Source of the DNA: Gymnogyps californianus
Lineage: Eukaryota > Chordata > Aves > Accipitriformes > Cathartidae
Length of the DNA stretch: 64,000 nt
Assembly: GCF_018139145.2 (NCBI RefSeq)
Contig: NW_026114257.1
Location: 1-64,000, forward strand
Reading direction: 5' to 3'
Part shown: piece after piece, positions 12,189 through 49,987 of the stretch
How positions within the stretch are numbered: the stretch's first letter is position 1
Layout: each line of letters starts with the position of its first letter
Program-made: the position numbers and the translations under genes
The notes under the pieces: model-generated
Told to the model about the DNA's origin: nothing
Databases searched by the model: none
Seen by the model: the letters and a program-made list of their open reading frames with translations, nothing else

Positions 12189-12219
12189 GCTCAGCTCCAT
12201 CTTGAAGCTGCCAGCATGC

Positions 12220-19921: not shown

Positions 19922-19989
19922 AGGGGGCCCTGCCTCCAGCCAGGTGGAAGAAAGGGACTACTGGGTTTATTGGACTGTGTGGATTTGAT

Positions 19990-20281
19990 GGCCTGGCACA
20001 TCAGACGCACAGGAGTATAAGGCTCTAGTAGACACTGGTGCACAGTGTACCCTAAGGTCATCGAGTTATAAAGGGGTAGAACCTATTTGTATTTCTGGGG
20101 TGAGAGGGGGATCCCAACAGCTAACTGTATTGGAGGCTGAAATAAGCCTAACTGGGAATGAGTGGCAAAAACACCCCATTGTGACTGGCCCAGAGGCTCC
20201 ATGCATCCTTGGCATAGATTATCTCAGGAGAGGGCATTTTAAGGACCCAAAGGGGTATTGCTGGGCTTTTGGAATAGCTGC
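19990..20281 (+). pseudogene. ERV family 1 aspartic protease (array interior A)
   Basis: An open stretch carries the retropepsin active site LVDTGAQCT (aspartate codon at 20031-20033) and about 60 residues later the C-terminal ILGIDYL motif at about 20210. In a retrovirus this enzyme cleaves Gag and Gag-Pol. The frame is open across these motifs and then reads into the next LTR at 20282, so the reverse transcriptase that should follow is absent from this interior. The protease frame differs from the last gag frame, consistent with a frameshifted pro. Confidence 0.8.
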
Positions 20282-20885: not shown

Positions 20886-20892
20886 GCCTTTT

Positions 20893-20910
20893 TGGCGCCC
20901 AACATGGGGC
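20893..20910 (+). other. Primer binding site, tRNA-Lys(1,2) type
   Basis: TGGCGCCCAACATGGGGC lies 7 bp after the middle LTR. It differs by one base from the Lys-1,2 primer site used by several betaretroviruses and from the copy at 59654. Confidence 0.85.
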
Positions 20911-21005
20911 ACGAAGGGTTGAGATAACGACGGATCTGATCAGAGTGTGTTAAAACAAACTTGTTATAAGCATTCATTGTATTGGTTTAATAGTTACTGG
21001 TTACA

Positions 21006-23421: not shown

Positions 23422-23860
23422 ACACCTGGGCCAAAGAGCATGGCATTGAGTGGGTGTATCACATCCCCTATCATGCACCAGCCTCTGGGAAAATCGAGCG
23501 ATACAATGGATTGTTAAAGACTACATTGAGAGCAATGGGTGGTGGGACCTTCAAACATTGGGATACACATCTAGCAAAGGCCACCTGGTTAGTCAACACT
23601 AGAGGATCTGTCAATCGAGCTGGCCCCGCCCAATCAGAACTTTTATGCACTGTAGAAGGGGATAATGTTCCTGTGGTGCACATAAAAAATATGCTAGGAA
23701 AACCAGTTTGAGTTATTCCTGCCTCAGGCAAAGGCAAACCCATTCGTGGGATTGCTTTTGCTCAAGGGCCTGGGTGCACTTGGTGGGTGATGCGGAAGGA
23801 TGGGGAAGTCCGATGTGTGCCTCAAGGGGATTTGATTTTAGGTGAGAACAGCCAATAGAT
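23253..23860 (+). pseudogene. ERV family 1 integrase core and C-terminal part (interior B)
   Basis: In the shifted frame the catalytic core continues with SDNGTHF (second Asp, 23388-23390) and GKIERYNG (Glu, 23496-23498). These are exactly 35 residues apart, the retroviral D,D35E arrangement. The frame closes at a TGA at 23709-23711. Sequence beyond it to about 23860 still resembles an integrase C-terminus (WWVMRKDGEV-like). The enzyme would insert viral cDNA; here it is broken by the frameshift near 23250 and the premature stop. Confidence 0.85.
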
Positions 23861-24363
23861 TAAATTGTATGATGTTAATTGCTATGTAATCTTGCCACTG
23901 TATGTCATCATTATTATAATTGTTATGTGCTATATCAATGGTATTACAGGAAGAATTACTTAGATTAATGAAGAATGAACTTTGACAAAACTGAGTGAAG
24001 TGCAGTAGTGATGGAACCAGGACTGACTGCAGCATGCAACAATCTGACACCACACACCATCCTCCTGCTGTGCCCAGTGTCACCTGCCTGCCACATCACA
24101 CCGAAGCCCAATCCTGTTCTGCCGACTGAGCGGACTTTTGCATCATCCCTCCTGCCCAGACAGACTGTTATGATAGATGGAGCTCAAAGTCATGGACTGA
24201 ATGAACTCAACAGACATTGGATAGAGATTGCCCATAGACCACAGGAATGATATCTGTATGTATATATTAAACGACGGGAAAACGGATGGTGATTAATTGG
24301 AAATGCATCAGAAAGTGTGGGATCTGGGCATAACGTAAATGGTATAGAATAAGGGGTGGATAT
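23861..24363 (+). mobile_element. ERV family 1 3' internal region without env
   Basis: No envelope frame is visible between the integrase and the 3' LTR. The last bases, AATAAGGGGTGGATAT, form a plausible polypurine tract directly before the LTR. Confidence 0.7.
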
Positions 24364-24950
24364 TGTCCTGGTTTCGGCTGGGACAGAGTTAAGTCTCTTC
24401 TTAGTAGCTGGTACAGTGCTGTGTTTTGGATTTAGTGTGAGAATTATGTTGATATAACACACTGATGTTTTAGTTGTTGCTAAGTAGCACTTATCTTAAG
24501 CCAAGGACTTTTCAGTTTCCCATGCTCTGCCAGCAAGCAGGTGTGCAAGAAGCTGGGAGGGGGCATAGCCAGGACAGCTGACCTGAACTAGCCAAAGGGG
24601 TATTCCATACCATGGAATGTCATACCCAGTATATAAACTGGGGGGAGTTGGCCAGGGGGAGCAGATTGCTGCTGAGGCATTGGTCAGCAGGTGGTGAGCA
24701 ATTGCATTGTGCATCACTTGTCTTAGGTTTTATTTCTCTCTCTTTTTTGTTATATTCCTTTTCATTACAATTATTATATTTTATTATTATTTTTGTTATT
24801 ATATTTTATTTTAGTTATTAAACCATTCTTATCTCAACTCACAAGTTTTACTTTTTTTTTCCAATTCTCTTCCCCATCCCCCTGGGATGGGGGAGGAGTG
24901 AGCCAGGGGCTGTGTGGTACTTCGTTGCTGGCTGGGGTTAAACCACAACA
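24364..24950 (+). mobile_element. LTR family 1, right LTR of the ERV array
   Basis: Starts TGTCCTGGTTTCGGCTGGG and ends GGTTAAACCACAACA. It is preceded by a polypurine tract. Flanking bases (GTGAT) do not match the left flank of either the middle or the left LTR, so the array has been rearranged or the duplications have mutated. Confidence 0.9.
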
Positions 24951-30503: not shown

Positions 30504-30652
30504 TTATATTCTCTGGATTTTTTCAGCCACCACAACTGGATTCTCTTTCCTGATTTTTGCTGCAGCTTCTGCTTTGTAATCATATGGGCAGTTATGCTTG
30601 TCAGAATAACGATGAAGTCCACAAAATAAGTTTCCACATCGGCAATCAAATC
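30504..30652 (-). CDS. ZFAND5: ZFAND5 last coding exon
   Basis: The acceptor TTGTACAG precedes GATTTG, and the TAA stop is at 30506-30504. It encodes the second half of the AN1 finger ([20 protein letters not shown]) and the C-terminal helix ending EKIQRI. Confidence 0.95.
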
Positions 30653-33600
30653 CTGTACAAAGAAAAGGAAGAGCAACATCACTAGGAAGCTTCAGACTTA
30701 AGCAAGCTATAAATTAAGGGCTTAGTCAGTACAAAGGGGGTATGTGTATCTACTTTAACGAACAGAATAAGTGAAATGAATATTTCCAAATATCAGCTCT
30801 ATTAAGGGATCTAACATTATGGATTTTGAAACAGCAAGCAAGTTTAATGGCTACAGATATTTCAACAAATTTAATCTAGTAAGAGGCAACTAATCATATA
30901 GATCTGTTCAATATTGACAAAGTGCTCTCATACCTGTAAGGCCAACCTTCTTTCTGCACATGAAACATCTGTTCTTCTTTGGTTTAGGCAGTTCAGAAGC
31001 TTTCTCTTCACTCTGTGAAGTACTAGGTTGAGAAACTGATGGGCTTGGTTGAGTAACAACTGTTAAAGCAAGCAAAAGAAATAAAGGTTAATTTTTTCCT
31101 TTTCTTGACTTCACTAGCTACTCAGTAGCATGCTTGTATTTATTAACAGTTAATTCCCCTCTACTAAGACCCTGAAGTTTATTGTCTGAAGTACTAAGTA
31201 GAATAGAGATAAGAGGGAAGTTAATAGAATACCTACAGAAAATGATCAAGTTTTCCCCACTTTTCCATCATCTAGAAAATACAGGATACCTAGCGTTATC
31301 ACCTGTATACACCCATATAGGTGTAAAAGCTTGGAAAGCACTCCAGAAGTTCCATGTACACACAACATTAAAAGTCATATGATCTAGTTTAAATTAATCC
31401 AAGACAATAACAATATTGTCACAGTTAAAGTTGTTGAACAGAGGGGATACTTGTGGAAAATAGTCAATAGGAACATATTTTAGAAACAAATGACATTTAC
31501 AGTAATGCTTTTTTGTCATTGTACCAAGTTACTCTGCCACTATACTTGCCAAGTCAGATGATCTAAAACCTCAGAGTCAACCAGAACAACAGCTAACATT
31601 CTTGAGCTTCAAACCACTGATTCTGTGATACATCAAGCATACTACTACAAACCACACAGCTCAAAAGAGCCCTTGTTTCAGACACTTTTTTCAGTAAAGA
31701 AAAAAAAGTACATATTTACATTGGATATCTGTATCCTTGTACTATATTCAACCTTAATGATCAAGCAGGTAGAGTCAAAATGACTTATTTTTCAATTGCC
31801 TTTGTCATGAACGCTTTTGGTCAAACTTGTCACATTTTACTCAAGTTCTCTGCAGGATAAAAATGGGTCCTTCTGTGAACTTCTGTGGATCTGTTAGTTT
31901 TCCTTGAAAAATTAATTTTTCATCAGTTGTTTTTAAAATCCTTTTTATACTCAAATTAGTGCAGAGGAAAGTCAAGGGAGGTATGTTTGTATACAAACTA
32001 ACACATACAACCCAAGGAGTTTGTTCCTGTTCAGTTTTCCTGGACACTCAGTTGTATGATTATATCTATTGTTTTAAAAGATAACGAGCAAACTATAAAA
32101 TACACTCCAGAATTAATGATTGAGAACATAGGCTTAAAGGACTCATTTGTAACCAACTTTATGCACACAAATAGGATTTCTTAGTTGAAGAACCTTTTGG
32201 ATCAGTAAGCACTGCATTCTATAAAAAGTGAACATGAACCCCTTATAGTTAAATTATCTTTACTATTAATACCTGCTCTTTTAAAATTTTATTTGTATTA
32301 TGTTCATATGCCTATTACTACTAACACAAAGCCTCACAGATCCAAGCCCCATTTCACAATTCACTGTAGAAGTTAACAAAGAGAGCCTCCAGTCAGTAGT
32401 TCATATTCCAGATTGTAAACAAGATTCAGAAGTGACAAACTTTCAGAGGTAACAAGGAATTTTCAGTGCTCGTACCCAAAAAGTTTTATACAGGAAAACA
32501 GTATTTTCTTATACAATATTATAACCGTAACAGTCCTAAGGAACAACTCAAACTCTTTAACTTTTTTTGACATATTCTATAGATTTTTCTAGAAAGTGTG
32601 ATGAGTTCAGCGTCAACACTATTTTGCTAAGTCTGAGGATAACAATACCATCCAATCTTGGATATATAATAATTTTTCCATATTTAAGCATGCTATTGGT
32701 AAAAAGCAAAGGTACAGCACTACAATCATTACTGCTATTAATACTTTTCAGAGTAGTTTCTGCAGCTGCTTTTTTTTTTTTTTAAAGATAACAATTCTTT
32801 TGTCTTGATAATTAATATTTTCTAGATGAATAGATATAATCCTTTAAACTTGTCTTTAAAACCCAAGGAAAGTAGTGTTCAGTATCAGATAATCTAGTTG
32901 AGAGCCTGTGACCAAAAAAATCAGGTTAAAAACACTGACACCACAGTGTAAGCCTGTTGGATACCACACACCTTAGCTGACAGGCATTAGCTATGGCATT
33001 AAGAAATTGACTAAACATCTCCCAAACCAAGAAGCATGGTCAAGCTCCTTTTAGATTTGTTATATTGCCAGTCTGTTTAAAGTTAAATGCTAGTTGTAAG
33101 CCATAGCAGATGGAAAAAGGGAACCTTCCAATTCTCTCCCCCATCCCACTCTGGGGGAGTGAGCAAGCAGCTGTGTGCTGCTTAGCTGCCTACCAGGGTT
33201 AAATCACAACAGGCCTTTTTGGCACCCAATGTGGGGCTCGAAGGGTTCAAGATAACGACATATTTGATTGGAATGTGCTAGATCAAATTTATAGCTGTTA
33301 TTGCTGTTTAGCTATTAATCAGCAGGCTCCTGTGCTTGCTATGGGGCTTGCTTGCCTTACTGTGTATTAGAGTCTAGTGCTCATCAGCGGCTGCTTTTTG
33401 CTTTTGCTGCTTGCTGTACTACTTATCATCTTACTCTGCTGTGCCTGGGAACATTTTGATAATGGCAATGGCCATGCACATGGGCTGGCAGATGGCCAGG
33501 GCATTGCTGCTGTTCCTGTGCTGCTGTACTGGACAGGCTGGAACTCCAGTGTGAACTCAAGTCAAAGGGACTGTGACCTGTGGATGAGTCCACGTGGAAG

Positions 33601-36600
33601 CAGGACACCCAAAAGCATCTGTGGCCATGGATATGTCCGTGCCAAAGCAGGTATACCTCTGAAGGGATTGTGGCCCAAGGATAAGTCCGCACTGGAGAAG
33701 GTACACCTTGAAGCATCTGTGGCTGTGGATAAGTCTGCAACACAGCAGGTACACTCCTGAAGGGACTGTGGCTATGGGTAAGGCCACGCTGGAGCAGGTG
33801 CACCTCAAAGCGACTGTGGCTGTGGATAAGTCTGTGCCGCAGCAGGTATACCCTGAAGAGACTGTGGCTCATAGATAAAGCTCCACTTGGAGCAGGTACA
33901 CCCCTAAGGGACTGTGGTCCGTGGATAAATCCAAGTCAGAGCAGGGGCAAGGGGAGGAGTTCATTGCAATGTTAAACCCTATGGCCTGGTACAAAGGGAC
34001 CAAGGGTAGAGATTGTAGTGGATATACCTTTAAACTGTTGTAACCCATGATTTGAGTTGCATGTTATAGGAATTACTATAGCAGGAACCACCTGAACCAA
34101 TGGAGGACGAATCTCACAAGAAGCGGTGCAAGTGCAGCAGTGACCTGATCTGAGCTCACTGAACCATCAAGGCAAAGAGATAGTCTAGTAGATCATTCTG
34201 TGTCACAAAACAAAGATTAAAAACAAATCCATCTAAAGGAAAACGTTACCAACTACTACAAATGTACTTCCTCCTCCATATAAACTGACAAGCATTCACT
34301 GCCACAACCAGCAACATGGGAATTATAAAGCAATAATAATATCCTAAGTGCAAAGGTCTATTTCCCAAAAGAGCTGCTGAACAGGATCCTTCCCCCACAA
34401 CTAAAATACATTCCAAAAAGGAAAAGCAGGTAATGTGCAGAAATGGGCAACTAAAAGGTCCCAAGACAAGGAAATGGTGCAGGGCCTCCTAAATCAGAAT
34501 TAAAGTGTTCAATTTATTACTCTACACAGATAACACCTGCAGAAAGGAGGTATCCTCCCACTTTTATTGCAGCAGAGTTAGATCTAATAATGAGTTTTAA
34601 TAATGAAGTCCTCAAAGTAGCTTCTGATTAACAGCTAGAACAGGGACACACATCAGAACAAAAACCCCTTTTTCATCAAACTGTAGCTCAAATGAAATAT
34701 TATAATTTTTAGTTGTTCTGGCATGACATTAGGAGCCAAATTAATCAGATATTACCCTGACAACTGCTTGTCACAAAAGGCTCCCTCTAGCATACAAGCC
34801 AAATCTAACTGGGCAACTACAATGCCATTCCTCAATATATTAAATTCATTTTATGCCAGAAATCATACTATGTTAATCATCAGGCAAAGTACTCTAAGTG
34901 ATTGCTATGGAATAAGTCACTAGACAAAAGCTGAAGCAATGGTAGGAAAATGGTTGTTACTGTTACCTGCAGACCTGCTTCCTCAGTACCAATAACCCTA
35001 TTCATATGAAGCAAAGCCTTTTACCACCAGAACATGTTTTATCACCTTAACAGAGTTCCTCTTGGCACGTAGCCCTCTCCATCATCATGGTTATTTCTCT
35101 TGCCAATCATTGGCTCAGGTTACCAGATGAGGTTTGTTTCATTTTAATTTTACGAGACCAATTCTCCTGCTACAAGGTTGAAGAACTTGGGAGCAAAAGA
35201 AGTTTTCAGAACCGGGCATGACTTTTTAATTTATTAATAAAGTAAGACAACAATAAGTTAACCACAGGCATTGTAAAATGCAGTACCATCAGGAACAACA
35301 TCACAGGCACAGGGGATGCCATTCAGAGGGACCTGGACAAGCTCAAGAAGTAGGCCCATGTGAACCTCATGAGGTTCAACAAGGCCAAGTGCAAGGTCCT
35401 GCACCTGGGTCAGGGAAACCCCCAGTATCAATATAGGCTGGGGGATGAAGGGATTGAGAGCAGCCCCGAGGAGGACAACTTGGGGATACTGGTGGATGAA
35501 AAATTGGACATGAGCTGGCAACGTGTGCTTGCAGCCCAGAGAGCCAATTGTATCCTGGGCTGCATCAAAAGAAGCGTGGCCAGCAGGTCGAGGGAGGTGA
35601 TTCTGCCCCTCTACTCCACTCTTGTTAGAATCCACCTGGAGTACTGCTGTGTTCCCAGTAAACATACTGACAAAGAAGGATATCTCCTTAACCAGAGCCC
35701 TGAGACATCCCTGATAAGCTCAGAGGAAACTTCCTTGATGGGGAGTATTTGGCAGGACAAAGAAACCTTGATGGGTGGCAGGACAAAGAAACTGTGACCT
35801 TCCAGGAAAACAGGAGTCAGCAACAACTATTCTGGGAACTGATGTCCTACACCCACTTACGTATCTACACTAAAAAGGTATAAAAAGTAACTCGCTACCT
35901 ACCTACCCAAAATGAGCTTCTCTGCAAGAGCCTCTCTGCATGAGATCTCTCAGACAGACCAGACCCTCGCTGGGGACGCCTGGCTGACTCCAGACTCTGT
36001 GACGCGGATCATCTTTGAAGTGAGACTTTTTCCGTCGTCCATTAGCCCCACTTCTGGGAGCGGTTTGGTGAGTGTCGCACTGGTAACACCTCACATAAAA
36101 TATGTATAGGCACGCACAGGTAAAGGTCCATAAGTATATACTTGCTTCACTCTTGTAATATATATACATACACACACACACTTGCTTTCCTAGTGGTAAT
36201 TTTGTAGTGACTTGCAGTATATATGCGTGTATATATATGTTTTTACTAATAGTAGTTTTGTAGCAATTTGTAATAAAGAAAGTCTCAGAAACCCAGACCT
36301 CTGTATCCTTGTGTGTTCCTTGCAGAATCCAGAGAACCCCATGGTCACAATCTTTACACACCTGCGGGTCGGGTAACCCTCATAGGTCATGACCGTGACC
36401 GCTACAGGTACAAATCCCCTTTTTGAAGCTGCTAAAAGGTGAATTGCCAATCTGAACAGAAGCCAAGTGGCAACCTGGCTTGCAAGCAAGGATGCTTACA
36501 GCTTACACAAGGCTGCAAGAAAGCATTTTAAAAGAAACAGGGTGATTGTGGCACAGGTGGATGTACAATGGCAGGCAGACTTGGTGGATATACAACAGTT

Positions 36601-39600
36601 TTCCAGAAACAATGATGGCGTTAAGTACATCTTAATGGTGACAGACATATTGTCCAAGCCTGCCTGGGCCATTGGTCTAAAAGACAAAACAGGTTCTGAA
36701 ATAGCCAGGGCTTTAAAAATAATTTTTAGCAGGGGGTGCAAGCCTCAGAAATTATAGACTGACCAGGGAAAAGAATTTTTAAACCAGCCTTTAAACAAGC
36801 TTTTAAAGCAGTGTAATGTTCACCATTTTGTTACTAATAACGAAGTAAAAGCCTCCATCATAGAGTGTTTTAACAGAACACTCAAACCCAAGATGTGGAG
36901 ATATTTTACAGCACACACCACTTTTCGCTACACTGATGTGTTATCAGAGTTTATAAAAAGCTATAACCATACCTTCCACAGAACTATCAGAGCCAGGCAT
37001 GTGGATGTGAACCCTTCAAACTCTGCAAGGGTTTGGAAAACTGTATATGCAGGTGTGCTTAAAATGAAAGAATCTGCACCTCTGCTCAAAAAAGGAGACC
37101 ACATCAGGGTGTCCAGAACAAAAGCGAGATCTGAGAAAGGTTATGAGCAGAGGTTCACAGATGGAATTTTCATAGTAGCTGAAATTGTGAGAAGGGGACA
37201 GATACCTGTGCACCGCTTAATATACTATGGTTGCAAAGCAATCAAGGGGACATTTTACCCTGAAGAACTTCAAAAAGTGAATGCTGACAAGGACAGAATC
37301 TACAAAATTGAGAAGATCATTTCTGCAGAAGGGAATAGAAGCAGCAAACAGCTGCTGGTGAAGTGCCGTGGCTGGCCCCAGAAATTTAGCAGTTGGATAG
37401 AAGTCTCCCAAGTCCAAGACATCAAGTGACTGGAAGTGGAGCAGGAGGAAAAAGAAGAACGGCAGACGGAGGTTTCCACATCACGCTGCCCAGCAATGCT
37501 AGCACCAAAATCTTCCCACAAAACAACAGCTTGAACTTCACCATACATCTGGTGAGACTCCTGGAGCTCTCTGGGAAGTGGGAGGTGGGGTGTTGGAAAT
37601 ACACACAGCTGGAATAACATCAATGAAGACACCATCTTTGAAATAGCGCTGCAGCGCAAGACATGGCGGTATACTTTGCGGAAAGGCTATTCTCCATCCC
37701 TCCCCATGTTAGTGGAACACATGAACCATCTTATTAACCCCCACAACAAAGCTTCAGCTGTCGACTCTCCAGCAGTGGGCCTGGTCTATGACCCCATCAT
37801 AAGGAAAAGAAAGCTCAAAATGGATGAGAAGCCTTATACTTTTTTCTACAACTGGGGATCTAGCACATATTTTGGGGACTTCTCTGGGGGCTGCTGCTAA
37901 GAAATTTCCCTCTGTGGTGGACATCACTGGAGGGTTTAACTCACTCTACCTCTACATGGACCTTTGTCCTGGTTTCGGCTGGGACAGAGTTAATTTTCTC
38001 CGCCTCCCAGCCAACTCCCCCCCTGTTTATATACTGGGCATGACATTCCATGGTATGGAATACCCCTTTGGCTAGTTCAGGTCAGCTGTCCTGGCTATGC
38101 TCCCTCCCAGCTTCTTGCACACCTGCTTGCTGGCAGAGCGTGGGAAACTGAAAAGTCCTTGGCTTAAGATAAGCGCTACTTAGCAGCAACTAAAACATCA
38201 GAGTGTTATCAACAGTATTCTCACACTAAATCCAAAACACAGCACTGTACCAGCTACTAAGAAGAGACTTAACTCTGTCCCAGCCAAGACCAGGACACCT
38301 TGTAGAGCACCAGCTTGTCAGGGACTTTGCACTTCCTTTATTGCGCTGTGTTCCGACTGGCAGTAATAACGATGAGATCATTATGGTGACATATAAGCCA
38401 CACTACTTGCTGGTAAACTGCCAGCACATAGACATGAACAGCACTGAAATAAAGACTGACCAGAACAAGCACGTCTCATTTTCCTTTGGGAAGGTGATTG
38501 TCAAGCTGCATCTTCAGCCCCAGAAGCCTATTTTAAGAAAGCACACCAAAATGGTAGTGGTAAAAAATTATGGGGACCCGTCCTTGTACGTGAATTATTA
38601 CAGAGCCCAGGCTGGCAACGGTCTCCGTAGTTTTCAATGTATTCTTGTGATGTATGGTGTGGGCGTTGGAGGTATAGTCTGTAGCCTGTTTAGAAAGGCC
38701 GTCCCACTTTTGAAAAGGTGTTTGGAAATTGTTACGCCACACATTAAAAGCACTGCTCAAGATATTGCAAAAAACGTGTTTGGCTACGTTTCCAAGGTTG
38801 TTGTGGACAAGTTGGAAATGCTGTCAAATGAGGAGGGCTCGGGACTTGCTTATATTCAAAGAAAAAGCCTTAAAAGAAAGAGAGCCATGTCACGCCCCCA
38901 GAGGGAAGGTCCGCCCCACCCCTGTAAAAGACAAAGGAAGTGTGGCACCAGACAACAGTCTGACCAGGACAGGAAGAAGAAAAAGAACAAGCCGGGCCAA
39001 ACCGTGCAAAAGAAACAGAAATCCCAGAGAAAGAGGTCCTGTGTTACCGCTAGAAAAAGAAATATATTTTAAAACGGATGGTTTCCATTCATGGCTGCTC
39101 AGAAGAACGTACCAAATTTGAGCTGGATTTGTTTGAAGTGTCCCTGACACAGACCAGCATTGAGAAAAGCCTGTTTACTGAGGCACCTCCACTTTTGGCT
39201 ATTGCAGAGTCTGCACCTCTGGACTTTTTCATAGCTGGGAGTGGGAAAGATTACATAGATCTGAACAACACTCTGCTGTAACTTGGCTGCAAGACCGTAA
39301 AAGCTGAAAGGTCAAACCTCAGAGCTGGTGAGGCCGTGGGTCTCATGAATTACCCACTGGCCTCTATTTTCAGCCAGCTGGACGTTATGCTGGGGGACCA
39401 ACTGATAAGCCAGAGCTGTTTATGAAGAAGGTGCGGGTGGTGCCTGGAGTGCCTTTGGGGCATGCTGAGGCATTACTTGTGGCCAACACTAAATAGCTGG
39501 TGGACCGGGTGGGCATGAAAGTGTTCAGCATACCGTCCAGCAGTCATGTCAGCAACCAGGAAAATTTGTTTCTGGGCCAGGTACCCAAGCTTGTTGCGAT

Positions 39601-42600
39601 TGAATTTGTAGATAATGACACTTTTAGTGGCAATTATGTGAAGAACCTTTACAACTTTAAACATTATGATATAAATTTTGTGGCCCTCTGTGGATGGTGA
39701 ACAAACGCAAACAAAACTGCTGCAGCCTGATTTCGAGAATGGCTGCTGTGTGAGATTATACATGCAGCTCGTTCAGACAATCGGCTGCCATATGAAAGAC
39801 CATTCCCTGCTGGTTGACAGGGAAGAGTTCACCCATGGCTATACCCTGTTCACCATTGACCTGTCTCCAGACAAAGAATGTTCTGATCACTATTCCCGAT
39901 TAAAACAGGAAACCTGAGAGGAGAAGTACTCTTTGCAGGGGCCTTGACCACCACCGTTAATATGATCGTGCATGGTATATTTGACAACGTGACAGAAATA
40001 AACCAGAGAAGACACATGCTCTTCGACTAGATGTGAAGATGGACGCTGAACAGCTTTCTTGTTTTTTTTTCAGCAGACCCCTACGCCAAGGAAACATTTC
40101 TAAGTGTTTACTCAAGTGACTGGTTCCCTAGGGCCCATGTTTCTCCAAGACCAGCAAACGTCCACAACTGAAGCATCCCCTCTCCACAGCCTGCAGATAC
40201 CACTGTGTCTTTTTCCTACATGACCGTAACAAGGGACTACCTTTTGAAAAACTTTTAAAACTGTATTCTAACGATTTAGTCCAAAATGCCCAGATGGTGA
40301 TGCATTTTGTAAAATATGAATATGGAGATTTCCCATGACCAGAGCTACTCAAAATATGTTTCAGAAGACCCAGACCTGCATCTCTTGCAATGATTTTGAT
40401 AAATATATTCTGTAGTATCTGGTTATTGTTAACTTGCCTACAGCAACTGTGGGAAACCCTAGAAAATGAACGAAAGAAAAACAAGGAATGGCAAGTGCAA
40501 CTCGAAAGTTTGGAGACCCAGTGGTGCTTGGATAGGTTGGAAGCCCAGGTACAGGGGGACATGCTGGAAATCTAAGTACACACAGTGAGGAAGGGTCACA
40601 GTGCCCACACTGGGCAATGGGGGCATAGGGATCGAGCAGTCAGTTACCCCAGTGATTACGAGGACAGCAGCAGCTGGGATTCCTCTGCTGAGGAATGGAC
40701 TGGAGGGTCCAAGGATGAAAACAAGTAGAGCAATCCCTGTGCGCCCCTTGGTTATTAATAAAGCAAAAGGACCCCCTGGGGCACCACAGCATACAATATC
40801 AGCGCGGGACTACATTCAGGCTGAGCTGCAGAATGTGGCAGACTCATAATCGGCAGAACTCCAGGGAGAAAATGGGACAGTGGTTACTGCGAGTGTGGGA
40901 CCAAGTAGGGGAGAGTGTACAACTGAGCCCCAAGAAGTGGTGCGTCTGGGAGCAGTTTCCCAACATTCAATGGTGACGCAACGATTAAAAAGGACTCGGG
41001 CAAATGGAAAACCCATTTGATTGGAATGACAGAATGGTGACACGGAAGCATATAGATGGGGGGGGGGGGGGGGGGGGGGGGGGCGGGGGCAATATTTGAG
41101 AGAATTGGCTATTCAATAAGGTATTTACAACCCTGCCTTCACTAGCCCCGACTCAAAGGTATTTACCTCAGGAATGCAATCCACACTGTTAGTCAGGGCA
41201 CCTTTTTCTCTTAAAGGGAACATCATATCGATCCTGGGAGGTGCTGTGACGGATGCACTCGACCCCCCTTAACCAACCAGCAGCAGTTTGGTACAGGCTC
41301 CAAAGGAAGTAAAGGCCTGAGCTGTAGCTGGGCCAAGAACTCCTCTAGGAAACCCACAAAGGAGCAGAGCAACACAGTGAAAGTTGTGGGTACAAGGAGT
41401 CTCGTGCATACCTCTCCCATTGTATGCAATTTGACTACGAGCCAACCACTTTATCCCATAAATATGACAGCCTAAGTGAGCCGCCTTTGAGCTCTCCCTG
41501 CTAGGCAGCGTGGCTGCATGGCGGTGATCTCCAGCAACGAGATCTTTTACCAGCGACAGATTGTTGGATGAGCCCAATTTGAGTTCTCCCTGGACGGCAA
41601 CTGGACTGCACGCCAGGCAACTCTCCCCTTGAGCAGGGACGCCTCTCAATGTTAAGAGATATTAGTCGTTTAGCTTAAATAAGTAAGTTTTAAATAGAAT
41701 GAATCACTTAGAGTTATAATGTTGTGTGATTTAGTATGCTGTTTGCTTAGCTTTACTTACCTAGCATGAGTAGCTAGATTTGCTGAAATCTTGGGTCGCA
41801 AGCTGTAAATTTTCACTTAGATTTACTGAACGTGTACTTACTTAGTCAAAACAGGGGCCTCCAGAGCCAGCGTAAATCAGAAGATAAGGAGGCTTCAAGG
41901 CTACAACCGTCAACAGCACCTGCAACTCGACAAGACAACAAACGGCCTGTCTGGAGACAGTGAAGGAATCCAATAAGGGAGTCAGAAGGTGTCAGGCCAG
42001 AATCACTATTGGACCAAAGGGTGTGTGGAAGATGCGCAGAGAGAGTGTGAAGAATGCGCGAGGGGCGGGTGAATAGTCTGTAAGGGTATAATTGCCCAGG
42101 GATTTCTTTGTTCGGGCTCTTCCGTGGTTCAATTGCCCAGGGATTTCTTTGTTCAGGCTCTTCCGTGGTTCCTTTTTCCTTCCTTCTTTCCTCTCCTTCT
42201 CCTCCCTGCCCCCTCCCCTTTGGGGGCACCCAGCTCGAGCTGACCCTGCTGCTGTATCACTCTATTAAATTATTTATTTCTATAAGACTCGATGCCTGAG
42301 AGTCTGTTTTGGGAAACCGAGGGCTCGAACTTTGGAGCGAACTAACACCGGACACCTGGACGGATCGGTAAGTGATTAATAGCATGCTAAACTTTGAAAT
42401 CCTAACTAAGTGATATAAAGGATTGATTGTGTGCATATAATTCCCTTTTAGCCATAAACCGTTGACCAAGTCTGGGACTAAGTTTGGATCCAGCCACACC
42501 TAGACTCCTCTCTGAGAAGGCGTTTAGAAAGCAAGGGGGACCGTTCTGAACCTCGTGACTCAACGGGAGGTTTTCCTTACCCTTTGAATCTCTTAGCCAT

Positions 42601-45600
42601 AAACCGTTGGCCAGGTCTGAGACTAAGTTTGGCTATAGCCGCACCTAAGCTCCATCAGGAGTTTAGAAAGCAAGGGGGTCCATTCTGTACCTCATGACTC
42701 AACGGGAGGGTCTCCCTTACCTTTTTGCATCTCCGATCTCTGTGCAAATCATTCTAAATCGATTCTAACTCGATTTTCCTTTGTATGTTTCTCCCATGTA
42801 GTAAGTAATAGAGTGAACCTTGCCATCAAACTCTATTAAGTTGCACTTTCACAGATTCTTTAAGGATCCTAAATCACTCGTCCACGACAACTGCATCTAG
42901 CTCTGGAGCCCTCAGTACAGGAAAGACATGGACCTGTTGGAGCAGGTCCAGAGGAGGGCCAAAGATGATCAGAGGGCTGGAACACCTCTCCTATGAGGAA
43001 AGGCTGAGAGAGTTGGGGTTGTTTAGCCTGGAGAAGAGAAGGCTCCAGGGAGACCTTACTGCAGCCTTTCAATACTTAAAGGGGTCTTATAAGAAAGCTG
43101 GAGAGAGACTTTTTAGTAGGGCCTGTTGTGATAGGACAAGGGGCAACAGTTTTAAACTAATAGAGGGTAGATTCAGACTAGATATAAGGAAGAAATTTTT
43201 TTATGATGAGGGTGATGAAACACTGGAACAGGTTGCCCAGAGAGGTGGTAGATGCCCCATCCCTGGAAACATTCAAGGTCAGGCTGGACAAGGCTCTGAG
43301 CAACCTGATCTAGTTGAAGATGTCCCTGCTCATTGCAGGGGGGTTGGACTAGATGACCTTTAAAGGTCCCTTCCAACCCAAACCATTCTATGATCATAAT
43401 TCTGCTAGAATAAGGACCAACATAATCCTAGTACGAGAAGTGCCTGGAAAAAAAAGCACAAATACAAGTGTTGCATTGTAAATTTGGGAAGGTTTACTTC
43501 ACTCAGTCTGAAAATAAGATGCATCTTTAAAACAGACAGAGGGGGAACAGCAAGGTCACTGATGATTGGAAGCCACAAGCCACAGCATGACAGCTGTTCA
43601 ACCTATACACAGAAAGGTCCTACAAACAGGAAGAACAATGCTACTCTGACCCCAAAGTATTAAAGCCACAGTGACTCTGTGAGACTTCTTCTGAAAAAGT
43701 CATAACCACTGTAATAACTAGACTTTCAGAACTGACAGTGGCTTTCCTTACATAAACCAATACAGCTGGAGCAGTTCATGAAAGACTGTATCCTGTGGGA
43801 GGGACCCATACTGGAGCAGGGAAAAAGTGTGAGGAGGAAGGAACAGCAGAGAGGAACTGTTATGAACTGACTGCAACCTTCCATTCCCCCTGCATCACTC
43901 AGAATAGAGGGAAGAGGTAGAAGAGTCTGGAATAAAGGAGTGAAGTTGAGCCTGGGAAGAAGGGAGCATGGGGAAGGCATTTTTAGTTTTGTCTTTGTTT
44001 CTTACCATCTCGCTCTATTTTTTTAATTGGCAATAAATTAATTTTCCCCCAGTTGAGTCTGTTTTGCCTGTGACTGTAATTGGTAAGCGATCTCCCTGTC
44101 CTTATCTCGACCCACAAGCTTTTCCATCTTATTTTCTTCCCCTGTCCTGCTGAGGAGTGAGAGAACAGCTGGGTGGACATCTGGCAGTCAGCCAAGGTCA
44201 ACCCACTACACCTCCCCATATTTAAAGCAACCAGAAAGGGCTACCAAAGTAATACCAAGAAGGTTTTTGGAAGCTTCCTCTATACCCAAACAAATTATCC
44301 AAAATAGGACCCTAGCAGTTTAACAAACTGCATTGACTTCCACAGTACTAGGAAGCAGTAAGCATGCCAGTGAAGAGTGAAATGCTCGAGAGCATAAAAA
44401 AAATTGTTTTAAGCATTCTAACTACTTTTACATGAAGGTAATCCCCAACTCCCACCATGGAAGAACTGGGAAAATTAAAACAGAAGAAGGAATAAAGGTA
44501 ATAGACAAAGAGCACCCAAAAAGTCATCAGAAAGACATACTGCACTTCTGCAGTACCAGAACTGAAAACTATACTACAGATTACGTAATCCTTACGCTGC
44601 ACATTAACACAATTGACTTGTATATAAAGTTTGAGTCACTGAAAATAAGATGGACAGTATTTATTATGCTTTATCAAGCTTGAGAATAAATATTTTATTC
44701 TTCAGAAACTGCAATTGCTATGCTGATCTAGGTGCCCATGATAAGAGGCTAAAGAATAAACTGCATTTTTAATTTGATGCCAAAGAACTGGGATAAAACT
44801 ATTCTGCAGCATGTAACTAATCTCCCACATGCCCAACTCTAACAGGCACACTGAATATTTTTACTCTTACATCAATATAACAGATACCCCTGTTTAAGTA
44901 TCACACTGAAATATGGTTTAATTTGGTTACCATCAAGACTTGATGTCTGTTGCGCATCTCTCAAAAAGATACAATAGCAGCCTATCGGCAACAAGCACAG
45001 GACCAGCAGTTGGGTCCTCAGCCTTATTTTTCAAGGTAGACAGCTTCCAGACTTAGAAGAGATTATTAGTTCCATTTCAGAATTGTTTCAATCAGGGACA
45101 TCTACTCAAGCTACAGCAGACATGGGAAATAGGAAGATAATTTTGAACACAAGACAAAGTTGATATATCTGATGATTTTATTGACAGCCACAAAGGAACT
45201 GTCTACAGATAGCACCCACAGTTAAATACTATAGCCATATTTGAAAAAAAATCAGAATCAGTTATTAAAACAAGAACCAAGCAATATAATCTATTTATCA
45301 TCTTGAACCTTCAATATCTCATAAGATAGCTGTCTATTCAGCATCTTACTCAGAATATTATCTGCAACACACACTGTATATATCATAGCTACTGGTTTTA
45401 TCCATAACATAAGTGAGGGCAACCCATAACAGGGTCTCAACCTGCATGTAGGACAGCTGTGGCATTTAACATTAAAATAACTCATCATATTGGCTTGGTA
45501 CAGAGCCAAAAGACAAGTGAGCTAACCATCATCTCATGAATTTCATTAAATGTCAACTTTCAGGAATGGAAAGGGTAACCTACAATGTGGACAGAATAAG

Positions 45601-48600
45601 ACTGTAAATTAACAATATTTGGAGAAGATTTTTTAACACTTATTTTACACAAGACCATACGCATTTCAAGTTCCAGTTCACTTTCTTTACAGGCAGCACT
45701 ATTCCACAGCTGTGGCTTCAGAGTGATAACTCACCACACTGCTCTCTAAACCAAAGCTATTACTGGGTTAAGAAAAATAAAGTTTTTGATATGCATGCTG
45801 ATACTAATTAAGTCTGGAAACACTGACAGACCTGACGGGAAGACTCATTCAGAAAGGTAGTGACCCACAAAAGCAATAAAAATGCTAGAAATATGCTATG
45901 ACTTGATACAATATGATTATTTAAACATACTTGTTTTCAGAACAGTTTGGTTTCAGTGCTCAATATGTAAGTCAGCTCTCTTGTATGGATCTTTTATTGC
46001 CACTTAAAAACCTGCTAAAACAAAACAGGTTTCTTAAAGGCCTCTACTATGCCTCACCAACTTGGTAATGGTATTGCTCTGATGTAATAATCAACACAAG
46101 GAAAGTAAAGGAATTAGATAAGGTTTTTTGCATTTAATTCCTGTAAATTAGTGTGGAAAAAACCCCACAAATATGAACAATATCTCTAGAAAGCTTCAGG
46201 TATATTCTGACTTTGCTCAAGACTGGACTAGAATTCAATCCTTAATTAAAAAGTGTAGAAGTATATCAAAAGCCTATAAAATGCATGATATAACTAATGC
46301 CCAATTATGAATTGGAGTTTTGATATAAAGGTCTTTATATTTCACTGACTTGTGAACAGTTCATCAGATAAGCAACTGGACTGAACACGTGCCACAATTC
46401 AATTACAAAACTACAACAAGCAAGAAAGTTGAACTAAGAAATTACAAGTTACAAGAAAATATAGCATGTTAGACATCTAAATTACAACCAACTAGGCCAG
46501 TTACATCTGTCGTGCCTTTCTTCCTTCAAATGCTAAGATATGATTAATTGCCTTCAGACCTGATTTGTTCTGAATGAGAATCCAGGTTACAACCTCAACC
46601 CGGGAAAAACAAGAGAAAAAACAAGCCTGTTAAGCTTCATTTTTGTCAACTTCAGAACTTTCTAGAATCAGATGCTTAAATCCCAACAGCAAGAAAGTAT
46701 ACTTTTAGTCCACAGACTTAAAGACAATTGTCCAGACCTAACTATTTAGAACTTTCTGGCTTGCAGAAGAGAATGAGCCTTCATAGTGCTGAAGACATTT
46801 AAAAAAAAGAGACCTACTTTGCTTGAAGGCTACATTGTTTGTTCCTGATCTACCATCTGATAGATAGTTATGAAATTCAACTGCCAGGGTGAGGCTACAG
46901 ATAAAACTAAATAGTCTTTTCATTAGCAACATCATGACAGGCATTATCTTAGAGAATTACATCTCATAGAAAGTATTAGCTTTGTTGTTATGAGGTGACA
47001 TGAATTATCTACTCTACTATTGTTTCAGCTCCTCCTCAAGAGACAGCACATATTGGATGCTACTGGAAAAGAGAAAGAAAAAAAACTATGGAACTAGCCC
47101 AAACACAATAGGGATTTATAAAAAGTTGAGGCCAGCTTTTCTTGACTGCAAGACACTTACAGGATCAATGTACTAGTGAATACAGCAAACACTTAGTATA
47201 TCTTAAATGTCCAATAAACCCTTTGTAATCTAAGAATAGTATATAAGGACATGTATAAGGACACTGTTCTGTGCTAAAATCTGCCCCCAACTTGATGAAC
47301 TTCTACTTTTAGAGCAGCTGAAGACTGTTTCAAGAATTTATGGATATGTACTAAGGAAGACAATTTTGTTATAGAAGTTTTTTTCCAAACATTTAAATTC
47401 CATGGTAGTTTTCCCAATGATCTCTACACGAGCTTTAACAGAGCTTTGACTGGTTTCAACTCTGAGTTTCAAGCTGCAAGATTATCATCTTGAGTTGCTT
47501 TTAGGGATTCCCCCCCCCCCCCCCCATTCTAATCAATAAAGAGTGCTGTGTGACACTACCATTTAGTTGCCTTGTTATGAGAAAATGGATATTGAGTCAA
47601 CAGAAACAGAAGATTGCCCTTTACAGTTGGCAAAATGACAAATCCCTATTGGCAGTTTTAATATCAAACAAGTACAGATATCAAACAAGTACGTTAAGAT
47701 ACCCATTTGAATAAACTGCTATATAAAACATGAATTCTATCACTCACTAATAGGTAGGGAAGCAGTCCCTCCCACCTCTCACCAAGAAATACTTTACACT
47801 TCAAAGTTTAAATGCTACAGCTACAACCTTCCTGAACAGGAGTAAAACTTTTAAATTGAACATTCTCACTAAGCAATTAATGCCATAAGTATTCTATATC
47901 CACAGAACAATGTTTTGGTTATATCTACTGATTACTCAATTAGTCCAAGAACCTTTAACAGTCTTTGTTAGTATTTTAAATCAAGTATTCCCTTCTCCCC
48001 CACTCTCATTCTTCTGTAGAATAGAATTTATTAAGAACTCTGTTCTTCAAATGCAACAAACCATCTTGATTGCCATGAGTCAGCAGGAACTGTACTGCTA
48101 GATTTCATACAGGAATCAACACTGACTTCAAAATTGAACATCTTGCACCCAGATACAATTTAAGTGTCTTTTAAAAAATGAAGGTTTGATAGCCAAAATG
48201 CTCCTCAAGTGTCAAATTATCTACTATATTCTGGCACTAGTAATTTTTCTTGATTCTGAGGGTACTAATACTCAAGAAGCATCCATAATTAACAGTTCCT
48301 CAAGACCATCACCACAAAGGGATATGCCTACTTAAGAGAAAGTAAATAAATTGTCAGCTTCTGTTAAGTCAGTTGTACCCAGTGTTACTCTGCAAACATA
48401 CCTGGCTCAATCTCTGTTTTCGGTGATACTTTTTCCTCTCTCGAAATGCTCATTTCTGTCATTTGCTGCATTACAGGCAAAGCGGCAACAGGCACGTTTC
48501 TGTTTATGTACAGTGAAATGGGTAATTACATTAGTTTTGAGTTCATAATAAGAGCTTAAACTGTCAAAATCCATCAATAGACTACCTGATCAGTTATTAT

Positions 48601-49987
48601 CGATACACATTCCTGACCTGTACTTCTATCTCTCTTCCCTAGAAGAAACTAGGCAATCTGTAGCAAATATTTCCCCAGATAAACCAGAAGTGTCCTTGTA
48701 AATGCAGTAGTCCAACACCAAACACTAATTAGTTCTCATTTATAAAGATTCATAAAGCACTGTCAGGTGCAGTGTCCCTTTTTCCTCTGCAGAAACTCAC
48801 TGTAATAGGGCCTGTAATAGGGCAAGGTTATGGCAATGTTACTTTAACTTGCTATACACTCACAGTTCATTCAAACCTCAAAATAATACCTTCATCTGGT
48901 GAAGGTGTAGAGCACAAGTCTTATGAGGAGCAGCTGAGGGAACTGGAGTTGTTTAGTCTGGAAAAAAGGATGCTTATCACTTTCTACAACTACCTGAAAG
49001 GAGGTTGTAGCGAGGTGGGTGTCAGTCTCTTCTCCCAAGTAAAAAGTGATAGGACAAGATGAAACAGCCTCAAGTTGCACCAGGGGAGGTTTAGATTGGA
49101 TATTAGGAAAAATTTCTTCACCAAAAGGGTTGTCAAGCATTGGAACAGGCTGCCCAGGGAAGTGGTTGAGTCACCATCCCTGGAAGTATTTAAAAGACTG
49201 TGTAGACATGGCACTTAGGGACACTGTTTAGTGGTGGACTTGGCAGTGTTAGGTTCACGGTTGGACTCAATGATCTTAAGGGTCTTTTCCAACCTAGATG
49301 ATTCTATAATCTTACCTTGATTTTTCAGATGTGCTACTAGCAGTACCTTCACAGTTGTTTATGTTAGTGTCTGCTCTCTGTACAGATGCAGAGTCTGAGG
49401 TAGGACTGTTTGAACCACTAGCTGTCCCTATATAACAGAAATTTGAGACGTTAATTATAAGCAAAGTATAGAACACAAGTTAAGTAGTTCTGCATAGTTA
49501 TGAACCGTTTCCAATCATTCCTCATTCTACTGCATCTTCTTAATTAAAAGACAGACTATATCGTTAATGACCAAAATACAGGGATTGCAGAAGAACACAC
49601 TTACAACAGAGGGTAAGTAGAACTGCAAATTAAGGTTCAACACCAAGTGGGCCAGAATATATTACACAAAAATGCATTTTTATTTTTACTGTGATTTAAA
49701 GTATTATTCCCTTTGATATTCATAGTTTTAGTATGCAGCTATCGGAAGATCTCCTGAAATACATTCTGCGATTCCTCTCATCACCTATACATTATGTTTT
49801 CAAGACAAAAAAAAATAAAAAGACTCAAACCTTTACCCATTGGGCTGATTCTACCACTATTCTGCTGTCGCTGAAGATGCTCTTTGTAGCAAACGGAACA
49901 CATCCCATTTGTCCTAGGATTTCCATAAAATCCACATCCTGTACTACACAGCATGGGCCCTGGGGTCTGGTTCGTCTCCTGAGCCAT
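30504..49987 (-). CDS. ZFAND5: ZFAND5 (ZNF216), A20/AN1 zinc-finger protein, five coding exons
   Basis: Coding exons in gene order are 49987-49837, 49427-49316, 48499-48402, 31059-30934 and 30652-30504. All junctions obey GT-AG and phases match. The total is 636 nt, 211 residues plus stop, against 213 in human ZFAND5. The N-terminus has the A20-type zinc finger ([13 protein letters not shown]...MCSVCYKEH). A Ser/Thr-rich linker follows, then the AN1 finger ([18 protein letters not shown]... HRYSDKHNC) and the C-terminal EKIQRI. The protein binds ubiquitin and the 26S proteasome through these fingers and is known for promoting protein breakdown in muscle and modulating NF-kB signalling. The N-terminal residues NQTPG distinguish it from paralogue ZFAND6. 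The frame is intact, so the gene is very likely functional. Intron 3 is 17.3 kb and full of mobile DNA. Confidence 0.96.
30934..31059 (-). CDS. ZFAND5: ZFAND5 fourth coding exon
   Basis: The acceptor TTAACAG precedes TTGTTACTC; the donor is TACAG|GTATG. It encodes the end of the linker and the first half of the AN1 finger ([13 protein letters not shown]). Confidence 0.95.
33220..33237 (+). other. Primer binding site, mutated tRNA-Lys(1,2) type
   Basis: TGGCACCCAATGTGGGGC lies 8 bp after the LTR end and differs by two bases from the site at 59654. Confidence 0.75.
33567..33945 (+). repeat. 48-bp tandem repeat, about eight diverged copies
   Basis: Units of about 48 bp carry the core CTGTGGC-TGGATAAGTCC followed by GCAGGTACACC. 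48 is a multiple of 3, so the unit codes a 16-residue repeat while the frame is open (to 33758). Later copies contain stops. It lies in the presumed gag/leader part of the ERV remnant. Confidence 0.75.
34201..35302. other. ZFAND5 intron 3, unassigned
   Basis: No repeat or coding feature recognised. Confidence 0.5.
35303..35644 (+). mobile_element. CR1 copy d, internal RT fragment
   Basis: About 340 bp match CR1 ORF2 from the GDAIQRDLD region to the VRxHLEYC region. Both ends are missing; the right end is cut by LTR family 4. Confidence 0.82.
35645..36406 (+). mobile_element. LTR family 4
   Basis: Starts TGCTGTGTTCCCAGTAAAC and ends GACCGCTACA, with a TATA box (AGGTATAAAAAGTAAC, about 35876) and an AATAAAG signal near 36273. 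Flanks AGTAC and GGTAC suggest a 5-bp duplication with one change. It sits between CR1 copy d and the viral integrase. A partial relative is at about 17240-17335. Confidence 0.65.
36407..37429 (+). pseudogene. Polinton/adintovirus-type integrase with C-terminal chromodomain
   Basis: A retroviral-like integrase core is visible: the first acidic residue in [10 protein letters not shown] (about 36567-36596), TDQGKEF with the second Asp at 36761-36763, and [10 protein letters not shown] with Glu at 36863-36865, 33 residues on. An SH3-like region (about 37090-37260) and a chromodomain-like C-terminus (IYKIEKII...[14 protein letters not shown]) follow, as in integrases of Maverick/Polinton elements. 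In the virus it would join the linear genome to host DNA. A TAG at 36755-36757, directly before the second aspartate, breaks the frame. The N-terminal zinc-binding part is missing, replaced by LTR family 4. The downstream half (36893-37429) is open to its stop. Confidence 0.88.
37430..38550 (+). pseudogene. Penton-like minor capsid protein, interrupted
   Basis: Directly after the integrase, short frames carry [10 protein letters not shown] and FPQNN, then LSGKWEVG (about 37465-37600), a hallmark N-terminus of a Polinton/adintovirus structural protein generally assigned as the penton-like minor capsid. More of it follows at 37676-37964 in another frame. A 333-bp LTR fold-back (37965-38297) interrupts it, and the C-terminal part continues at 38298-38550 ([30 protein letters not shown]). 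At least two frameshifts lie between 37600 and 37960. The last frame runs without a stop into the next gene. The viral frame reads straight across the insertion site, showing the LTR piece arrived after integration. Confidence 0.75.
37965..38297 (-). mobile_element. LTR family 1 fold-back derivative inside the capsid gene
   Basis: The first 36 bases (TGTCCTGGTTTCGGCTGGGA onward) are the family 1 5' terminus in plus orientation. The rest is the first half of the same LTR in minus orientation, ending AAGACCAGGACA. So both ends are the same LTR terminus in inverted orientation, and the LTR 3' half is absent. A 4-bp CCTT flanks it (37961-37964 and 38298-38301). Confidence 0.88.
38551..39072 (+). 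pseudogene. pVI/pX-like minor virion protein of a Polinton/adintovirus
   Basis: From ATG 38551 an open frame of about 173 residues begins with a Tyr-rich segment ([14 protein letters not shown]). A Gly-rich hydrophobic helix and an amphipathic region ([21 protein letters not shown]) follow. The C-terminal half is strongly basic, with repeated KR/RK clusters (KRQRK, RKKKKNK, RKRSC). This layout matches the small protein encoded just before the major capsid in Polintons and adintoviruses, compared with adenovirus pVI/pX: membrane-active N-terminus, DNA-binding or nuclear-targeting tail. The frame is intact to TAA 39070-39072 but is fused upstream to the penton-like gene by loss of its stop. It overlaps no other gene. 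Confidence 0.72.
39078..40030 (+). pseudogene. Hexon-like major capsid protein (double jelly-roll) of a Polinton/adintovirus
   Basis: An ATG at 39091 starts the gene 18 bp after the preceding stop, but a one-base shift near 39105 moves it into the frame with [31 protein letters not shown] (39110-39281). These are the conserved N-terminus of this capsid family. Later blocks appear in changing frames: [14 protein letters not shown] near 39375, [15 protein letters not shown] near 39740 and a conserved C-terminus ending RRHMLFD at 40028-40030. Stops at 39279-39281 and 39483, several frameshifts and an internal deletion near 39420 leave about 310 codons, shorter than usual for the family. It would build the icosahedral shell; this copy cannot. 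Confidence 0.87.
40039..40360 (+). pseudogene. Adenain-like cysteine protease remnant
   Basis: Nine bases after the capsid stop, an ATG opens a frame reading [11 protein letters not shown] and FLGV-like [11 protein letters not shown], the position and N-terminal pattern of the adenovirus-type maturation protease in Polintons and adintoviruses. The frame stops at 40162-40164. Near 40240-40340 another stretch ([22 protein letters not shown]) looks like the protease C-terminus. The middle, including the catalytic His and Cys regions, is not recognisable, so this is a heavily deleted copy. Viral sequence ends near 40360. Confidence 0.6.
40361..41057 (+). pseudogene. Gag fragment of another ERV family
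   Basis: After about 200 unassigned bases, 40570-41045 reads in three shifted frames with gag-like content: [23 protein letters not shown], then [15 protein letters not shown] near 40890 (compare WLLRCWDN in family 1 gag), VVRLGAV and MVTQRLKRT. It therefore looks like a capsid region distantly related to that of family 1. Stops and frameshifts are frequent. It ends at the G-run. Confidence 0.55.
41058..41083 (+). repeat. 26-base G homopolymer
   Basis: A run of 26 G, followed by C and five more G. Four-stranded (G-quadruplex) structure is likely, and the length is prone to sequencing error. Confidence 0.9.
41230..42354 (+). mobile_element. Putative old LTR region
   Basis: The features are LTR-like but the boundaries are unclear. 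A low-complexity promoter-like tract (TAAGGGTATAATTG, 42081-42094) is followed by GCTCGAGCTGACC, an ATTAAATTATTT possible poly(A) signal near 42265 and a GT-rich tail to about 42354. The left limit (41230 or about 41650, TGTTAAGAGATATTAG) is uncertain. A 41-bp unit is duplicated in tandem at 42090-42130 and 42131-42171. It lies next to the gag fragment and may belong to the same element. Confidence 0.4.
42446..42735 (+). repeat. Two-copy tandem repeat, 145-bp period
   Basis: The unit containing AGCCATAAACCGTTG, GACTAAGTTTGG, GTTTAGAAAGCAAGGGGG and TGACTCAACGGGAGG occurs at about 42446-42590 and again at 42591-42735. The second copy is about 10 bp shorter in the middle. It follows the putative LTR and may be an ERV leader. 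Confidence 0.85.
42884..43398 (+). mobile_element. CR1 copy e, 3' part
   Basis: Covers the end of ORF2 ([22 protein letters not shown], in a frame ending near 43200 with frameshifts) and the 3' UTR to CCATTCTATGATC. 5'-truncated. Confidence 0.87.
43399..43764. other. ZFAND5 intron 3, unassigned
   Basis: No feature recognised between CR1 copy e and the LTR fragment. Confidence 0.45.
43765..44210 (+). mobile_element. LTR family 2, 3' fragment
   Basis: Matches the second half of family 2 from GGAGCAGTTCATGAAAGACT to the terminus CAACCCACTACA, including the AATAAATTAATTTT signal near 44030. The 5' half is absent. Confidence 0.82.
44211..48401. other. ZFAND5 intron 3, unassigned distal part
   Basis: AT-rich intronic sequence without recognisable elements. 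A 16-base C-run is at 47510-47525. Confidence 0.6.
48402..48499 (-). CDS. ZFAND5: ZFAND5 third coding exon
   Basis: The acceptor AACAG precedes AAACGTGCC; the donor is GCCAG|GTATG. It encodes the linker with [10 protein letters not shown] and [11 protein letters not shown]. Confidence 0.94.
48889..49310 (+). mobile_element. CR1 fragment f in ZFAND5 intron 2
   Basis: A CR1 3' part with [21 protein letters not shown] coding (from about 48912) and a tail CCTAGATGATTCTATAATC. It is antisense to ZFAND5 and its tail ends about six bases inside the intron from the donor at 49316. More diverged than the other copies. Confidence 0.85.
49316..49427 (-). CDS. ZFAND5: ZFAND5 second coding exon
   Basis: The acceptor ATATAG precedes GGACAGC; the donor is TCAAG|GTAAG. 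It encodes the Ser/Thr-rich linker ([17 protein letters not shown] region). A CR1 begins only about six bases beyond the donor. Confidence 0.94.

Follow-up and report, generated by a model that had tools for sequence, protein, structure and literature searches.

Does the row of virus-like genes within an intron of ZFAND5 in Gymnogyps californianus document, as the first-pass annotation had it, an integrated DNA virus with a capsid set? We addressed this for the window, i.e. the whole stretch of 64,000 nucleotides analysed (NW_026114257.1, positions 1 to 64,000). Our reading, to which we assign a probability of roughly 0.9, is that the block at 36407-40414 (plus strand) represents the decayed fossil, no longer functional, of a tetrapod Maverick (adintovirus/Polinton) module that extends from integrase to protease, and that the ZFAND5 copy in which it is situated belongs to a most likely W-linked contig. 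The viral fossil is genuine, approximately 4 kb long and broken, and nothing suggests a present function. The locus is new; its kind is already known from birds, as degraded bird Mavericks have been published (PMC8097293).

Identity and state of the module

The gene remnants of the block run in one direction and comprise an integrase with chromodomain, penton, pX/PW, the major capsid protein (MCP) and an adenain-like protease. Together with the sequences that interrupt or limit them they are:

36407-37426, plus strand: Maverick integrase, 5'-truncated, with one in-frame stop at 36755-36757 (database matches, within-window alignment, tree)
37301-37417, plus strand: integrase chromodomain (Pfam Chromo, residues 182-220 of window:36758-37426, below the curated cut-off; the turtle integrase P0001 is above it)
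37465-37964, plus strand: N-terminal part of the penton (minor capsid), frameshifted, start approximate (gene order; without outside match)
37965-38297, unstranded: partial long terminal repeat (LTR) of an endogenous retrovirus (ERV), largely inverted, interrupting the penton (sequence comparison)
38298-38550, plus strand: C-terminal part of the penton (label from gene order)
38551-39072, plus strand: pX/PW (pVI/pX-like) open reading frame, 173 aa and stop (outside relatives)
39054-40030, plus strand: MCP (hexon-like) remnant in several frames, start approximate (gene order; without outside match)
40037-40338, plus strand: adenain-like protease remnant (alignment to L054, part of a sister copy to which the Peptidase_C5 matches belong)
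40414, plus strand: right limit of the similarity to Mavericks, based on a single other copy (L054 1161)

The integrase is the most informative part. Residues 52-390 of P0001 (Pelodiscus sinensis) align to 36407-37423 with 62% identity and an E-value of 2e-141 within the window, the stop at 36755-36757 being spanned. If the open part of the integrase was used for a database search, 39 out of 84 candidates reached E<=0.001 (best 3e-86), and the best named relatives stem from Pelodiscus (61%), Eretmochelys (60%) and Anolis (57%, a sequence named transposon-derived protein F54H12.3). In a midpoint-rooted tree of 36 rows the window sequence, a copy from its own genome and P0011 form a 100/100 group, which joins Pelodiscus, Eretmochelys and Natator at 95/92. 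The Pfam scores of the window pieces stay under the curated cut-offs (rve 18.5 of 32.6 bits, Chromo 17.3 of 25.1 bits), and P0001 passes both; relatives and tree identify a Maverick-type integrase with chromodomain. Its first 28 (by P0002) to 51 residues (by P0001) are gone. The catalytic residues D, D and E seem present by eye. Scans of viral contigs with the integrase piece, two integrase alignments, the pX alignment and the sister MCP as queries gave no confirmed match.

Outside the genome, relatives were found for two of the five genes, namely the integrase and pX; for the latter these were two out of 234 database candidates (P0040, 51% identity, and P0041, 54%). Further searches in PDB returned no match. 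The module order and the single strand of 36407-40414 match the published Maverick order (PMC8097293), and the labels penton and MCP themselves lean on this order and on the motifs noticed in the first-pass annotation.

Within the genome we compared 11 loci (L011-L020 and L054). All of them align to parts of the body of the block at 78-90% DNA identity outside the LTR piece, with the exception of a single 86-column stretch of L011 (72%). Two of these loci, L013 and L054, belong to the same copy on contig C351, the sole other copy traced from integrase to protease; everything to the right of 39610 is based on it. L013 presents, in this order, integrase, penton N-terminus, pX C-terminus and an MCP frame of 246 aa, and L054 carries on with MCP and protease. 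Compared to this copy the window has a gap of ~330 bp in the MCP at 39415/39416 (L013) and one of ~185 bp in the protease at 40157-40165 (L054). The only Pfam family hit by the protease pieces of L054 is Peptidase_C5 (adenovirus endoprotease), over profile positions 1-55 (E 0.0047) and 90-112 (E 0.069), in either case below the cut-off, and the window's own protease pieces gave no Peptidase_C5 match in Pfam. Profile searches, which the first-pass annotation had suggested as a check, gave in Pfam sub-cut-off matches for rve and Chromo in the window and for Peptidase_C5 in the C351 copy, and none for penton, MCP and the window protease.

The five remnants stand in the order that had been claimed, on one strand and within about 4 kb, as borne out by the integrase and pX relatives and the same-genome copies; the Polinton/Maverick/adintovirus identity holds, in agreement with integrase relatives, tree and module order, and the span given at first (36407..40360) is right to ~55 bases. 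The claimed integration of a virus with a capsid set at 36407-40414 is not supported: the integrase is truncated and carries a stop, the penton is cut, MCP and protease have gaps, and no end repeats were found. With a stop, frameshifts, deletions and an insert in the sole module present, the block is not an intact genome of Adintoviridae as a virus.

If a common retroelement had been mistaken for a virus module, this would agree with the LTR-like and CR1 surroundings and with the fact that integrases are common to retroelements too. Such an error is hardly conceivable, since the integrase falls among turtle and Anolis relatives that bear rve and chromodomain, and pX and protease come next in Maverick order. 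A retroelement spanning the whole region, which the first-pass annotation had named as evidence against itself, is contradicted by the same observations, and a retroelement origin of the five genes was rejected.

Host gene and its probable sex-chromosomal setting

30507-49987, minus strand: ZFAND5, most likely the W copy (five coding exons found, ~49987-49838, 49431-49315, 48504-48409, 31060-30920 and 30656-30507)

The Maverick block lies between coding exons 3 (48504-48409) and 4 (~31060-30920), so that its placement in intron 3, counted in coding exons, holds; with ZFAND5 on the minus and the element on the plus strand, the claimed antisense transcription holds as far as orientation goes. 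A genome search with the last exon led to six places. Two on C307, which is the contig of the window (763,215 bases), and one on C30 (85,355,094 bases) are exon-identical; those on C24, C11 and C6 are more distant. The C30 locus is collinear with window 27051-57958 at ~68-82% DNA identity by block, over ~21 kb of C30 and including introns. The Z-like intron on C30 is without the Maverick element.

We infer that C30 is most likely the Z and C307 the W chromosome, because ZFAND5W is listed for the collared flycatcher (PMC4468903) and a stretch copied from Z to W in songbirds contained ZFAND5 (PMC7692361). Between the W-like and Z-like copies, dN is 0.023 and dS 0.136 over 185 codons; exon 3 was excluded owing to an indel, and a few codons past exon 4 were included. 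The W-like copy therefore looks constrained. The contig could instead be an autosomal paralogue or a germline-restricted chromosome with a ZFAND5 copy. A germline-restricted chromosome exists in songbirds (PMC13365828, PMC10172847). We regard this as improbable in view of the collinearity with C30, introns included, the flycatcher ZFAND5W and the repeat-rich, duplicated sequence.

Separately, the order of 1394-9731 is inverted relative to the matching Z-like locus (L040-L041), pointing to a breakpoint of a rearrangement close to 9.7 kb and 58 kb.

Copies in the genome and mode of decay

The integrase query gave 97 matches in the genome, falling into at least 63 clusters (10 kb) on 27 contigs, and these counts are lower bounds. 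Contigs other than C1, C2, C8, C21 and C30 hold 46 of the clusters; those with a length given are C307 (763 kb) and C351 (575 kb). On C28 there are 17 separate clusters, mostly of one ~67-residue piece, as if an array had been amplified there. Maverick integrase pieces in at least 63 clusters are hereby documented for one bird genome. Should many of the 46 on the other contigs be W-linked, bird Mavericks will have been undercounted wherever male or W-poor assemblies were surveyed.

The window itself is duplicated. Its part 17363-48897 is repeated in inverted orientation at C307:102850-142721 with 99.65-99.93% identity (100% in a block of 289 bp). The third copy, at C307:151483-162380, is partial: it corresponds to window 48897-38003, without integrase and exons 4-5, and then continues into other sequence. 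The inverted second copy contains an extra 8.36-kb element with two identical 695-bp LTRs at the position of window 37442, between integrase and penton (L026 289-8645, i.e. C307:114289-122645). This LTR element is a very recent insertion, absent from the copy in the window.

Frames are broken in six out of six copies listed. Changes in the integrase between the window and up to nine other copies are distributed over codon positions 1/2/3 as 353/329/373 (p 0.25), and eight further stretches gave p 0.13 to 0.7, several of them with few changes. For pX the counts over six copies are 141/100/118 (p 0.029), without an excess at third positions. Locus L015 was dropped from these counts, being 99.8% identical to L014, and the p-values are a guide only, because the window's own changes enter every comparison. 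The Maverick copies look like neutrally decaying fossils. A gene such as the intact pX might be thought to have been kept for a host function, as its frame is open over 173 codons with 49-55% identity to outside relatives. This is very improbable, since its changes are not concentrated at third positions and the neighbouring genes are broken; host use of pX was rejected on the codon-position counts.

Edges of the block and a possible route into the intron

35313-35647, plus strand: left half of a CR1, final five bases ACTGC (sequence comparison)
35648-36406, plus strand: LTR-like sequence, begins TG and ends CA, followed by GGTAC and the broken integrase (family not defined)
40415-42889, unstranded: unclassified sequence to the right of the Maverick piece, ends CA (edge comparison)
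42890-43394, plus strand: right half of the same CR1, begins ACTGC (sequence comparison)
17081-17219, plus strand: Maverick sequence just upstream of the integrase and integrase N-terminus, ends GGTAC (17215-17219), left limit approximate (alignment)

Similarity to the other copies begins at ~36407, where the left-edge sequence GACCGCTACA is followed by GGTAC (36407-36411) and then by the integrase. An integrase start is found at ~17081-17219; it is followed at 17220 by TGACAG, an LTR-like start, and the N-terminus of a turtle integrase weakly matches 17150-17326 (E 1e-4). Integrase halves flanked by GGTAC are the footprint expected of an LTR element inserted into the integrase gene. Today a distance of 19.2 kb, which includes ZFAND5 exons 4-5, separates the halves. 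The CR1 in turn is split at 35647/42890 with ACTGC on both halves, and the block it encloses starts with TG and ends with CA. The duplications seen are thus 5 bp long and both occur at LTR-like edges. Each match alone is weak, because GGTAC (38 times) and ACTGC (82 times) are frequent on the plus strand of the window; their position at the breakpoints is what counts. The two edges of the block are unlike each other (one 14-bp match, E 0.87), and the block is therefore not one simple provirus. An ERV that captured the module and was inserted as a single provirus was rejected, as the edges share no LTR.

Between the integrase halves, ERV sequence occupies 17363-24950; it contains nested LTRs and matches RNase H, an integrase core and, weakly, an aspartyl protease.

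From these edges a history can be sketched, the order of its events being inferred. A Maverick lineage would have spread through the genome, and an ERV may have inserted into the integrase gene of one copy (GGTAC duplication). Through an ERV-linked rearrangement, the right part of this copy would then have come to lie in ERV sequence that had split a CR1 of the ZFAND5W intron, with the ACTGC duplication. The genes would have been broken by indels, the stop and the LTR piece, and later duplication within the contig would have produced one copy of the region that includes the integrase and another that comprises only what lies to the right of 38003. We consider the ERV-linked route slightly better than an even bet.

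Its main rival is a direct integration of a Maverick in the ZFAND5W intron, with both ends later lost to deletion and ERV insertions. In its favour, the module is contiguous bar one LTR piece, and vertebrate Maverick fossils often are without discernible end repeats (PMC8097293). Direct integration leaves aside that the left edge consists of CA and GGTAC while the matching integrase start with GGTAC and TG lies at 17.2 kb, beyond ZFAND5 exons 4-5, and that the block sits within a CR1 whose halves bear a 5-bp duplication with TG/CA edges. Maverick terminal inverted repeats were not found in 35230-43410, where the longest (35 nt) of 11 inverted pairs is an LTR fragment; a 6-bp target site duplication, a further Maverick feature, was not searched for. 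The absence of the repeats speaks against an intact element here and not against Maverick ancestry. Altogether we consider direct integration unlikely, and the virus integration at this site that had been proposed at first is not supported in this setting, a host gene that is most likely the W copy and a block bounded by LTR-like and CR1 sequence.

Several observations weigh against the fossil on the W as we read it, or against parts of its history. The 5-bp matches are short, and the LTR-like edges are not tied to any repeat family. Penton and MCP have no match outside the genome (0 families in Pfam; chance matches only for the sister MCP in PDB); in vertebrate Mavericks these two are a single jelly-roll minor capsid and a double jelly-roll major capsid. 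One stretch of the penton (37465-37560) displays a third-position excess of 32/46/80 (p 9e-6), so that some past coding constraint is visible. Collinearity, repeats and the literature are what the probable W-linkage is based on. Finally, after the copying of the Z-linked stretch to the songbird W, ZFAND5 was deleted there (PMC7692361); this copying means that a later Z-to-W transfer could also be considered.

A second remnant with PolB-like frames

12006-13245, plus strand: second Maverick remnant, N-terminal PolB-like frames (label by motif and by integrase linkage elsewhere)

The frames at 12006-13245 share 67-75% identity with P0042, whose matches in the window are confined to 10051-12804, on the integrase strand and 23 kb to the left of the block. 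In vertebrate Mavericks a protein-primed PolB forms, with ATPase, PM and PZ, a module that is on the opposite strand and directed to the centre; of this module, PolB was the part searched for in the window. The frames at 12006-13245 are presumably PolB-like, by a motif and by integrase linkage elsewhere. As Pfam reported no family for the frame or for P0042, the label is founded on these two aspects. With 12142-13245 as query, 91 matches were obtained across the genome. At C30:54.27 Mb, C1:51.16 Mb and C30:16.54 Mb a PolB-like match lies at most 5 kb from an integrase match and points to it, as in published Mavericks, and at C30:11.9 Mb and on C36 both matches are on the same strand; this linkage was compared by eye at selected places, without a full tally. 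A single Maverick spanning 12-40 kb was rejected, because ZFAND5 exons 4-5 intervene and the PolB-like frame shares the strand of the integrase.

A further PolB-side remnant was noticed at 10051-10305; these remnants are downstream of ZFAND5 and common to many places in the genome.

Comparison with known systems

Adintoviruses (Starrett et al. 2021) are reported to have the gene set integrase, penton, pX, hexon and adenain. This is the same set that the first-pass annotation had named; the window differs in holding a decayed genomic fragment and not an intact or exogenous genome.

The vertebrate Mavericks described by Barreat and Katzourakis in 2021 (PMC8097293) also possess integrase, minor capsid, PW, major capsid and protease on one strand and are degraded. 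The window integrase is nearest to turtle sequences, in line with their grouping of turtles, crocodiles and birds, and the window as a whole fits their picture of degraded bird Mavericks. In contrast to their elements, the window presents one module, no end repeats were found, the bounds are LTR-like and the host gene is a probable W gametolog. It is one more bird Maverick locus, and it can be dated in relative terms, the element occurring in the W-like copy and not in the Z-like intron.

Among mammals, the Maverick fossils of human chromosomes 7 and 8 (PMC9683012) are likewise old, degraded and incomplete with genes lost; the differences here are the bird host, the at least 63 integrase clusters and the probably sex-linked contig. 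A literature search, judged by titles and abstract starts, turned up no article describing Mavericks on the W of a bird. For the platyfish W, a title cited in PMC8097293 names a Polinton-derived marker, which is comparable in being Polinton sequence on a W, in this case in a fish. The ERV-rich avian W (PMC8310711) shares the repeat load with recent ERVs; the main text of that article, which treats the W as an ERV refugium, contains no occurrence of Maverick or Polinton. It is a tentative and rather doubtful idea that the avian W stores Maverick fossils as well as ERVs, and that ERVs which landed in Mavericks moved gene blocks into host introns by recombination. If this were true, viral modules could reach genes without their own integrase.

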